Source: a bacterium | GTDB lineage: Bacteria; Desulfobacterota; Binatia; DP-6 | DNA length: 64,000 nt | Direction: 5' to 3' | NCBI GenBank assembly: GCA_026129405.1 | Contig: JAHCID010000002.1 | Span: 434,001-498,000 of the forward strand | In this document: piece by piece, positions 2,569 through 8,425 of the stretch | Position numbering within the stretch: the stretch's first letter is position 1 | Layout of the letters: each line of letters starts with the position of its first letter | The notes under the pieces: model-generated | Database searches by the model: none | What the model was told of the DNA's origin: nothing | The model's input: only the letters and a program-made list of their open reading frames with translations | Made by a program: the position numbers and the translations under genes

Positions 2569-4833
2569 CTACAGCCGATGCTCGCCGAGGCGCTGCTGCG
2601 CGGGTTGCAGCGCCCCGGCGATCGCATCCCGGCACGCGGCCGGGATGCCGCCCTTCTTCTTCGCGGCGAACGCCCCCGCCTTCTTGACGATCGCCTGGAG
2701 CACCTTCCCCGCCTGCGACGCCAGCTTGGTCGCCTTCGTCTCCTTCGACGCGGAGGCCGCCTTGCCGAGCTTCGCCAGCGCCGCGCGCACTTTGCGGTCG
2801 ATGAAGCGTTGCAGCTTCGACGGCACCGGAGGCTCGCACAGCGCGCGGCTCTGCACCGCCGCCAGACACTCGCGCGCCCCGGCGCAGGCGGCCGGGGGCA
2901 GCGTCGTGGTCGTGGTCGCGCCGGGGAGGGTGGTCGTGGTGGTCACGGCGCCCGGCTGCGTCGTCGTCGTGGTCGGCACGGTGCACCCGCCCGACGCCGA
3001 CGCCGAGACGACCGTCCAGCTCACCGTCGTTTCGGTGACGTTGCCGACGATGTCCCACGCGCGCAGCGTCGTCAGACGCGGGCCGACGACGTTGGTGTCG
3101 AGCGTCTGTCCGCTCGTCACCGGCGAGCCGCACGTCTGCACGCCGGCGAACCCGTCGCTGCACGTGAACGTCGCCTGCACCGTCGCGCCCTGGCAGACGA
3201 CCGATCCCGCCACCGGCGAGGTCACGTCGATCGTCGGGCCGTCGGTGTCGAGGTCGTTGACGAAGGTCTGCACCGGCTCGCCGGGGGCGTGCGCGTAGAC
3301 CAGCGGGGTGGTGAAGACGAGCGAGCCGAGCGCTTCGACCTTGCGAGCTTCCGCGTTCGGGCCGGTCGGGTTGATGAGGACGTAGTCGCCGGGGCCGAAG
3401 CCGTCGTTCGAGGCGACGTGCAGGACGGTGTCGCCCGGTTGGCTCGCCTGCGAGACGGTGGTGTCGCCGGCGGCCGTGCCGTCGCGGCCGAAGCGCTGCG
3501 ACTTCGGCGCCGATTTCACCGGCCCGTCGTCGGTGGTGCCGAAGGCCCTGGCGCGGATCGTCAGCTCGGGGCGGGTGTCGAAGTCGACCGTCACCGTGAA
3601 GGTCGCCGAGGCGTCGCCGGCGAGCGTGATGCCCTGGGGCGTCGAGCTCGGGGAGACCAGGCCCGTCGCGTCCGTGCCGATCACGAAGACGTTCTCGATC
3701 GGGTTCGAGGTCGTGTTCTTCACCACTGCGACCAGCGTGGCGCGGCCGTCCTCGTCGACGTCGACGAGCGTGAACGACGCCATCTGCAGCGGGCCTTCCG
3801 TGCCCGCCGGCTCCGCGAACGAGATCGGGACGGAGTCGAACGCGGTGCGGTTCCAGTGATCGGTGACGGCGAGCGTCGCGAACGCCGTGCCCTGGAAGAA
3901 GGAGGCCGGAATGCCGTCGATCTCGCCGAAGTCGAAGCTGAACACGGGATCGGTCGAGCGCTCGATGCGGTTCGTGGGCTCGCCCACGACCGGGTACTGG
4001 AACGACCACGCGACGTGCTCGACGAGCGGGAACGAGCCGGTGGCGTCGAGCTCGATCGCCTTCGCGCCGACGCGGCGGACCCTGCCGATGGCGTGGAGCG
4101 GCGCGGGGGGCGTGGTCGCGAAGGTGACGATGCTGATGCCGCCGCCGATTCCGCAGCCCTCGATCGGGTCGGCGCCGCACGAGCCGTCGAACGTGCCGTC
4201 GCTCTTCTGGAGGACGAAGCGGAACGACCAATCGAACCGCAGGCGGAAGATCATCGGCGCGCGCACGCGCCGGTCGTACGGTCCCCACGTCACGCGATAC
4301 GTGCAGGCCGTCGCCGTCGGGCCGCAATCGCCCTGGCGCACGAGCAACGCGAAGTCCGGGCTCGGCACGTCGGCGGTCGGCGCGCCGTCGCAGCCGCCGC
4401 CCCAGATCGGGCTGATCGCCTGGCGGCAGCTCACGCGGGCGCCGTTGAAGTCGATCATCATCGCCGGCCAGTCGAGGCGCGCGGTCGCGTAGTACGTGCC
4501 GCCGTCCGGCCCCGGGCCCGAGAGCAGGCCGGGGGTCGTGTAGCTGAAGGTGATCGTCTGCGCCGGCCCGGGCAGGTCCTCGTCGCGGCGGAAGTCGACG
4601 TCGCGCTTGCTGATGGCGAGCGCGATGCCGTTCGGGCCGGGGCGCGGAACGGCGGCGGGATCGTGGTAGCTGGCGAGCGTTCCCTCGCAGTCCGTCAGGT
4701 TGTTGGGGACGAGGCCGTTGGCTGCGCAGTCGGGGAGCGGCGGCGACGGCAGGTCGGCCGCCCGTGCGTGCGGTGCGGCAAGGGCCGCGAGGAGCAGAAG
4801 TGCGACCAGGAAGCGGCGGCGTCGGCGCGGCAT
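2569..4833 (-). CDS. Secreted multidomain protein with a Thr-rich TTTTTLPG linker and basic C-terminal domain
   Basis: A 754-residue exported protein of unknown function. A signal peptide (MPRRRRRF, hydrophobic core, cut after PHARA) leads to a Cys-containing N-terminal half (residues about 25-260) with no recognisable enzyme motif. Beta-sandwich modules follow, including a bacterial Ig-like segment (TDGPTIDVTSPVAGSVVC...). Near residue 630 lies a linker built of TTTTTQPG/TTTTTLPG units. The protein ends with about 95 residues starting CAGARECL, rich in Lys/Ala helices (KAASASKETKATKLASQ) and holding a second Cys pair. The linker-plus-tail arrangement looks like a surface-attachment or sorting module, which is inference. 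The start was chosen at the ATG directly before the signal peptide; the frame stays open upstream. It is divergent from the TMTC-like gene. Confidence 0.75.
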   Translation of the reverse strand: MPRRRRRFLVALLLLAALAAPHARAADLPSPPLPDCAANGLVPNNLTDCEGTLASYHDPAAVPRPGPNGIALAISKRDVDFRRDEDLPGPAQTITFSYTTPGLLSGPGPDGGTYYATARLDWPAMMIDFNGARVSCRQAISPIWGGGCDGAPTADVPSPDFALLVRQGDCGPTATACTYRVTWGPYDRRVRAPMIFRLRFDWSFRFVLQKSDGTFDGSCGADPIEGCGIGGGISIVTFATTPPAPLHAIGRVRRVGAKAIELDATGSFPLVEHVAWSFQYPVVGEPTNRIERSTDPVFSFDFGEIDGIPASFFQGTAFATLAVTDHWNRTAFDSVPISFAEPAGTEGPLQMASFTLVDVDEDGRATLVAVVKNTTSNPIENVFVIGTDATGLVSPSSTPQGITLAGDASATFTVTVDFDTRPELTIRARAFGTTDDGPVKSAPKSQRFGRDGTAAGDTTVSQASQPGDTVLHVASNDGFGPGDYVLINPTGPNAEARKVEALGSLVFTTPLVYAHAPGEPVQTFVNDLDTDGPTIDVTSPVAGSVVCQGATVQATFTCSDGFAGVQTCGSPVTSGQTLDTNVVGPRLTTLRAWDIVGNVTETTVSWTVVSASASGGCTVPTTTTTQPGAVTTTTTLPGATTTTTLPPAACAGARECLAAVQSRALCEPPVPSKLQRFIDRKVRAALAKLGKAASASKETKATKLASQAGKVLQAIVKKAGAFAAKKKGGIPAACRDAIAGALQPAQQRLGEHRL

Positions 4834-4941
4834 CGGATGGCGAGGGGGCGTAGCACCGGTCGTCGCACGGCGACCATACGCATCTCTGCGGACCCTGCCG
4901 CGCGATTGCCCCGTCCCCGCGCCCCTGCGATAGCACCTCGC

Positions 4942-6834: not shown

Positions 6835-6907
6835 TAGCTTGACACTCGCGCCCTTGGCCCCGACGGTGGACGCTACGCCGCCTGCTCGGGCGCGTGTGGA
6901 GGTGTCG

Positions 6908-8425
6908 ATGGGGTGTGTGCGGACGAGGCTCGGGGTGGTGGTGTTGGCGCTGGTAGTGCTCGCGGGGCGAGCCCACGGCGTGACGGTGGTGAGCGAGCTG
7001 GGGGCGACGGGCAGCGTCACGGTCGACGCGACGGCGCCGTGGAAGTACGCGCCCCACCTCCTCATGGTGTGCGATCCGTACTCCGCGCTCCTCCAGTTCC
7101 CCGTGCCGCCCCTCACCGAGGGCACGACGGTCTCCGTGGCGCAGCTCCGGCTGCACGTCGGCCGCGTCCCGGCGTCGCTGCCGAACTGGACCGTCCATCG
7201 CCTCCTCGGCCCGTGGTCGCCGGAGGCGCTGCCGCCGATCCCGGCCACCGATCCGGAGATCGCCGCCGCGGGCGTGTACGACGCGGTGTCGCAGACCATC
7301 ACCTGGGATCTGACCGCCACCGTGCAGGCGTGGGTCGCCGATCCGTCGACGAACACCGGGGTCGCGGTGCAGGCGGCGGCGAGCCGCAGCTGTCGTCCGA
7401 ACCCGCGCCGCTTCGTGCAGACCGGCGGATCCCGCAAGTACCGCGGCGGCCTCAAGGGCCCGGTGACCTCCTTCGGCAGTGCCTCGGGCGAGCTACCGCC
7501 GCCCCAGCTGCTCATCGTCTATGAGTCGACGGCCGAGGGCGTGCCCGGCCCGACCGGTCCCACGGGCGCGACGGGCACGACAGGCGCCACGGGTCCCACG
7601 GGCGAGGCCGGCCCGACCGGTGCGACGGGTGAGAGCGGCCCGACCGGCGCGACGGGCGACACCGGCCCGACCGGCGATGCCGGCCCAACAGGCCCGACGG
7701 GCGCCACCGGTTCGACCGGCCCGACAGGTCCCACAGGCCCGACCGGCGACACTGGCCCGACGGGCGAGAGCGGTCCGACCGGCGCGACGGGTAGCACCGG
7801 TCCGACCGGCGACATCGGCCCGACGGGCCCCACGGGTAGCACCGGCGCGACCGGCGACATCGGCCCGACGGGCCCCACGGGTGACACCGGCCCGACGGGC
7901 GCGACCGGTGACACCGGCGCGACCGGCGACATCGGTCCGACGGGTCCCACGGGTGACACCGGCCCGACGGGCGCGACCGGCGACATCGGCCCGACGGGCC
8001 CCACCGGCGACGCCGGCCCCACCGGCGCGACGGGCGTCACCAGCCAGGTGCTCGCCGGCGGCAGCTCGATCGACCTCACCCTCGGCGACACGCCCGTCTA
8101 CATGGCGCCGTTCGGTCTCAGCTACAGCCTCAGCAGCGAGCGCTCGGCTCTGCCGCTACGGGCGGGCACGCTGCACAGCCTTCAGGCGGTGGTGGTCGAC
8201 GACGTCCTGCCGCGCCTGGTCGGCACGCTCTTCTTCACGGTCTACGTGAACGGCCTGTCGACGTCGCTCGCCTGCACGATCGGCCCGCCGCCGGGCGACA
8301 CCTGCACGAACATGATCGATCAAGTGTTCATCACCGACAACGACCTGGTCCAGGTCGAGATGACGCACAACGGGCTGCTCGACATCTTCTGGGTGAAGTT
8401 CAGCCTGCTGCTGTCGCTGAGCTGA
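6908..8425 (+). CDS. Secreted collagen-like protein (DNRLRE-type domain + Gly-X-Y region + C-terminal domain)
   Basis: A 505-residue exported protein. A signal peptide ([18 protein letters not shown]) is followed by a beta-sandwich of the DNRLRE/CBM96 kind ([43 protein letters not shown]), spanning about residues 25-205. Then come 56 uninterrupted collagen triplets, mostly GPT, GAT, GDT and GDI, and a final domain of about 125 residues with two cysteines ([14 protein letters not shown]) that probably trimerises and registers the triple helix. Bacterial collagens such as the Bacillus exosporium protein BclA have the same Thr-in-Y bias and are O-glycosylated there. A GGAGGT ribosome-binding site seven bases before the ATG fixes the start. 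The role, in adhesion, sheath or surface filament, is inferred. Confidence 0.85.
7538..8041 (+). repeat. Collagen Gly-X-Y repeat region, 56 triplets
   Basis: A 504-base coding repeat of nine-base units reading glycine-X-Thr almost throughout: [27 protein letters not shown]. Longer blocks recur with slight codon changes, notably [18 protein letters not shown], which points to growth by unequal recombination. No triplet is interrupted. Reading the other strand gives a meaningless Val-Pro-Ala-Gly-Pro frame. Confidence 0.97.

Follow-up and report, generated by a model that had tools for sequence, protein, structure and literature searches.

A TMTC-like GT-C/TPR gene between two Thr-rich exported-protein genes is a lineage-specific arrangement, while a VKOR-linked paralogous cluster is a candidate Thr-linker maturation system

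The window, i.e. the complete stretch of 64,000 nt that was analyzed, contains at positions 2569-8425 a putative transferase gene that is located between the genes for two Thr-rich exported proteins. The following features were identified at and directly behind this locus:

2569-4833, minus strand: P0001, 754 aa, signal-peptide-like N-terminus, Thr5 linkers
4942-6834, plus strand: P0002, 630 aa, membrane domain at the N-terminus, TPRs at the C-terminus
6908-8425, plus strand: P0003, 505 aa, DNRLRE domain, collagen-like region and C-terminal domain of 127 residues
8434-8448 and 8457-8471, no strand: arms of a perfect 15-bp inverted repeat with a loop of 8 nt, read from the sequence
8482-10131, minus strand: P0004, signal-peptide-like N-terminus, glycosidase-like, weak GH39

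The gene coordinates and the central position of the transferase gene agree with the initial annotation, which had also described the genes as divergently arranged around it. This applies to P0001, whereas P0003 lies in tandem behind P0002 on the same strand. The two genes are 73 bp apart, a GGAGG precedes the ATG of P0003, and no terminator-like site was seen in the gap, so that P0002 and P0003 may share one transcript. This possible co-transcription is a reason to consider a functional link between the two proteins. The inverted repeat separates the convergent genes for P0003 and P0004 and is a candidate two-way terminator, albeit one that lacks a T run. P0004 has a weak Pfam match to GH39 (25.2 bits, slightly below the cut-off of 26), and the motifs IWNEP and WDTE are visible in its sequence, suggesting an exported clan-A glycosidase-like protein.

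P0001 combines a body of roughly 610 residues with three Thr5 linkers (TTTTTQPG, TTTTTLPG and TTTTTLPP, near residues 618-650) and a Cys/Lys-rich helical C-terminal segment. The earlier description of a secreted protein with TTTTTLPG linkers thus holds, one of the three having exactly this sequence. Thr linkers are not confined to this locus: about 16 separate genes scattered over the window's genome carry one. They are not chance occurrences, because the linker pattern has 21 matches in this genome and the reversed pattern has none. A literature search retrieved no publication on Thr-linker glycosylation in this lineage. Residues ~610-750 of P0001 (window positions 2569-3000), linkers included, recur at 33-43% identity in other proteins of the window's family f1 (L099-L102, L104 and L105), and this segment possibly serves as a common module for sorting or anchoring.

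P0003 contains a run of 56 GXY triplets (residues 211-378), which matches the Pfam Collagen family (PF01391) at 2e-25. Thr occupies the third position in 46 of the 56 triplets (nearly every triplet according to the initial annotation), and 25 of these 46 are GPT. The long GXY run assigns P0003 to the bacterial collagen-like proteins, with export judged from the N-terminus alone. GPT-rich triplets are also found in BclA and other bacterial collagen-like proteins; in contrast to these, P0003 is fused to an N-terminal DNRLRE domain (48.5 bits, NCBIfam cut-off 34) and to a different C-terminal domain. A fold for the latter from a single-sequence model was set aside due to its low confidence (pLDDT 41). 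The same genome contains a second GXT-rich collagen-like gene, which is cut by a contig start (L001, G000:C2:1-1701) and the C-terminal end of which resembles a phage-tail-collar domain by eye.

For P0002, an AlphaFold2 model was built from 41 family members and reached a mean pLDDT of 94.5. A sequence search of solved structures returned TPR matches alone, and the top ranks of a Foldseek search were likewise TPR proteins only; the GT-C part emerged in a second alignment. In this structural alignment, the membrane part matches ArnT (Z 20.5 over 336 residues), AglB (19.8), Pmt4 (19.7) and OST (19.5), i.e. the model has a multi-spanning membrane fold like that of solved GT-C enzymes. The C-terminal tail aligns with TPR proteins, in agreement with a Pfam TPR_2 match of 8e-12. 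All 36 aligned rows have the acidic pair D35-D36 in the first outer loop, R149 is found in 41 of 41 and K184 in 40 of 41 sequences, and Y339 is nearly invariant. Of the DDW motif that had been pointed out, the DD is accordingly a family feature, and the W varies. The model places P0002 with high confidence in the ArnT/PMT/OST fold class, as a GT-C enzyme with a TPR tail.

P0002 had been assigned a TMTC architecture. The eukaryotic TMTC1-4 are protein O-mannosyltransferases, DUF1736 is a feature of all human TMTCs, and the TMTC motifs M1 to M7 are DD, SHKSYRP, RxD, KE(T/Q)xxT, DW, PxxP and ERxxY (PMC7801869). P0002 has in common with TMTC1-4 a GT-C membrane domain followed by TPRs, the DD in the first outer loop, a conserved R in the second, a K in the third, and an E and a Y in the fifth loop (PMC7801869). 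In contrast, DUF1736 (PF08409) has no match at E<0.1 in P0002, and none was found in the whole genome of the window; the domain exceeds the cut-off in 17 of the 98 relatives. Of the motifs compared (M1 to M5 and M7), only M1 is complete. M2 is reduced to R72-P73, M3 has kept R149 with A151 in place of the D, M4 has kept K184 followed by S185, M5 has D270 (or D273) without a W, and M7 has kept E335 and Y339 with the R shifted to 337. Because DUF1736 is absent and most of the motifs are incomplete, P0002 is TMTC-like rather than a TMTC: the GT-C membrane domain and the TPR tail of the proposed architecture remain, and the assignment to the TMTCs does not. By its model, P0002 would so work like a GT-C transferase with a TMTC-like domain order. 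Uncharacterized prokaryotic TMTC-like homologues with the same architecture were noted by Eisenhaber et al. 2021, and the available part of that paper gives neither their gene context nor their substrates (PMC7801869).

The closest solved membrane fold is that of the aminoarabinose transferase ArnT (5f15/5ezm), at 15% identity. ArnT modifies lipid A and carries, instead of TPRs, a periplasmic domain of its own. As it is the best single structural match, the sugar transferred by P0002 could be destined for a non-protein acceptor, i.e. lipopolysaccharide, lipid A or a surface polysaccharide. However, human TMTCs also match ArnT best (PMC7801869). In models of human TMTCs, the lipid-linked mannose is enclosed by motifs that are incomplete in P0002, which speaks for a non-protein acceptor, as does the finding that GT2 (PF00535) is the commonest homologous neighbor of TMTC-like genes (12 loci, one of which adjoins a P0002 orthologue). 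In contrast, a tail of TPRs typically serves to bind proteins, and TMTC-like relatives accompany genes for Thr-linker or pilin-type proteins. We regard a non-protein acceptor as possible but doubtful. Pmt4 and the bacterial PMTs (e.g. M. tuberculosis Rv1002c) belong to the same fold class as P0002, but have no TPR tail and share 12% identity with it in the structural alignment. It is well established that bacteria O-mannosylate exported proteins (PMC5554173, PMC12331936).

The initial annotation had proposed a dedicated surface-decoration locus, in which P0002 would attach O-linked sugars to the Thr linkers of P0001 and to the GXT collagen of P0003. Several observations are in line with this proposal: P0002 adjoins P0003 in a possible operon, Thr-rich acceptors lie on both sides of it, and its GT-C fold is related to that of protein O-mannosyltransferases. 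A neighborhood that is not conserved across homologues had been named as a refuting result. TMTC-like matches were found in all 98 relatives, none of which came up as a member of the window's genus, usually several per genome, many weak ones being TPR alone. In a tree of 76 long members, P0002 forms one fully supported clade with L069, L070, L071 and L072. These four loci and L073, a fragmentary copy in G004, were compared with the window locus; the five orthologues are 64, 60, 60, 44 and 43% identical to P0002, and two of the loci begin or end at contig edges. Their neighbors encode a methyltransferase, enzymes of acyl-CoA metabolism, a GT2, a DUF2298 protein and response regulators. No Thr-linker or collagen protein is encoded beside any of the five, and the sole TTTT run nearby belongs to an unrelated protein of 106 residues (L072). 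For the P0002 clade, the outcome that had been named as refuting was therefore observed. A scan of genome_contigs with P0002 yielded one locus (L089, JAUYPJ010000015.1), titled Candidatus Omnitrophota, which may reflect misbinning or lateral transfer; it too has no Thr or collagen neighbor. The homologue at this locus is 59% identical to P0002, and toxin-antitoxin-like genes adjoin it by eye.

The genome G075, which is 100% complete, encodes a P0002 orthologue of 60% identity and has zero matches to the Thr5-Leu-Pro pattern. Conversely, G003 has 27 Thr5-Leu-Pro linkers, and a P0002 orthologue with at least 40% identity is not among the matches listed for it. Relatives of the P0001 body are present in G044 (42% identity) and G024 (53%), both of family f7, in unrelated gene surroundings and with neither a TTTT run nor a GT-C neighbor; the alignments stop before the P0001 linker. 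A search of the relatives with the N-terminal part of P0003 gave marginal DNRLRE-type matches alone, in five genomes. The P0001-P0002-P0003 arrangement is thus real but lineage-specific. Because close relatives of P0002 have different neighbors, a dedicated target pair at the window locus is unsupported, and we consider the proposal of a dedicated decoration locus decidedly improbable.

The initial annotation had also suggested testing whether Thr-linker or collagen genes are enriched within five genes of TMTC-like genes. We therefore compared the fractions of Thr-run proteins within five genes of 52 further TMTC-like loci, all from genomes that bear linkers, with those in 40 control stretches. 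The p-values are indicative only, since they ignore the relatedness among the genomes and since several thresholds were used. A TTTT run is present in 18 of 396 proteins near TMTC-like genes versus 8 of 634 in the controls (Fisher p 0.0013); this rule lets in a few spurious proteins, e.g. L072 gene 8 and L132 gene 3. A stricter rule, which requires 7 Thr within 12 residues, leaves the picture unchanged (13/396 versus 4/634, p 0.0015). An enrichment is present, but it is carried mainly by one paralogous cluster, because under the stricter rule the values drop to 6/341 versus 4/634 (p 0.09) when the eight loci with a VKOR-type neighbor are left out. Beyond this cluster, a weak excess may remain; like the existence of the cluster itself, it is to be counted on the side of a dedicated locus. 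The exact Thr5-Leu-Pro pattern by itself yields a weak signal: it occurs within 5 kb of 5 out of 69 TMTC-like genes, where 1.9 would be expected (p 0.04 if the window is included, 0.12 if it is excluded). Across the 98 genomes, TMTC-like matches and linkers do not correlate in number (Spearman 0.05, p 0.60).

The cluster contains a GT-C/TPR subfamily, A3, the profile of which identified members in 13 genomes of the families f4, f10, f14 and f16 (L207-L218 and L113, in G009, G066, G021, G054, G048, G028, G041, G060, G072, G078, G035, G015 and G084). The scores are at least 529 bits in 12 genomes, G028 carries an incomplete gene at the edge of a contig, and the next relative scores 416 bits. The usual order is Thr-linker protein, DUF4215-type protein, small exported proteins, GT-C/TPR protein, VKOR with a DsbA domain, LuxR-type regulator and PDZ/S41 peptidase, followed by a convergent gene for a PPIase lipoprotein. 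Some copies are cut by contig ends, the Thr-linker gene was seen in fewer than all 13, and in some copies (L207, L211) four or five genes separate it from the transferase gene. Three or more Thr linkers occur in 13 of 13 A3 genomes versus 6 of 85 others, values that are uncorrected for shared ancestry; the six belong to family f1, which has no A3. The A3 proteins form a clade separate from P0002 and have kept more TMTC motifs than P0002 (SDD, GRAE, KENAxT, GERxxY). The cluster seemingly adjoins selenium genes (SelD/SelB/SelA-like by eye).

We infer that the VKOR-linked cluster is a maturation unit for exported proteins, which would provide disulphides, folding, trimming and Thr glycosylation. 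It, and not the window locus, is a good candidate for a Thr-linker maturation system, and this conserved paralogous cluster lends support to the broader view that Thr-linker proteins are substrates of some TMTC-like enzymes. A stronger version would hold that bacterial TMTC-like GT-C/TPR proteins are a protein O-glycosyltransferase family for Thr-linker exported proteins, with one subfamily in the VKOR-linked cluster and P0002 as a lineage-specific offshoot that now serves P0001 and P0003; this version appears unlikely to us.

Further GT-C/TPR loci were observed in other contexts. Two enzymes have a true DUF1736 (L220, G051:C1:205500-221500, 43.0 bits; L222, G013:C1:1250000-1267000, 42.5 bits). 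They are surrounded by type IV pilus/type II secretion genes and an ABC transporter, with a T2SSE ATPase in L222 and an N-methylation pilin in L220, and a role in pilin glycosylation is possible. The window's genome also contains two TMTC-like genes in tandem (L079, G000:C5:264031-267520), and in family f7, the loci L160 and L162 likewise combine this pair of subfamilies.

Taken together, the fold, the domain order, the acidic pair and the non-conserved neighborhood make it fairly probable that P0002 is a general or differently targeted envelope GT-C glycosyltransferase and not part of a dedicated three-gene system. This reading is drawn from few orthologous loci, and a substrate need not be a neighbor. 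P0002 would draw a sugar from a lipid-linked donor, presumably a polyprenyl-phosphate carrier, and add it at the outer face of the inner membrane to an acceptor, which would be a protein held by the TPR tail in the periplasm. In this reading, it is one member of a large TMTC-like family of bacteria, which is represented several times per genome in this class and the subfamilies of which occur in different gene contexts. Any modification of P0001 or P0003 by P0002 would then probably occur in trans, by a general enzyme that acts on many exported proteins.

The results remove a tempting example, as the window locus is not a conserved target-enzyme pair. Human TMTCs modify cadherins; no description of the targets of bacterial TMTC relatives was found in the literature searched. 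The VKOR-linked cluster is the better example, and it is there that a link of TMTC-like enzymes with Thr-linker proteins in general is worth pursuing. It would explain how Thr-linked, Cys-rich exported proteins are finished, and it would give the bacterial TMTC-like enzymes a testable substrate.
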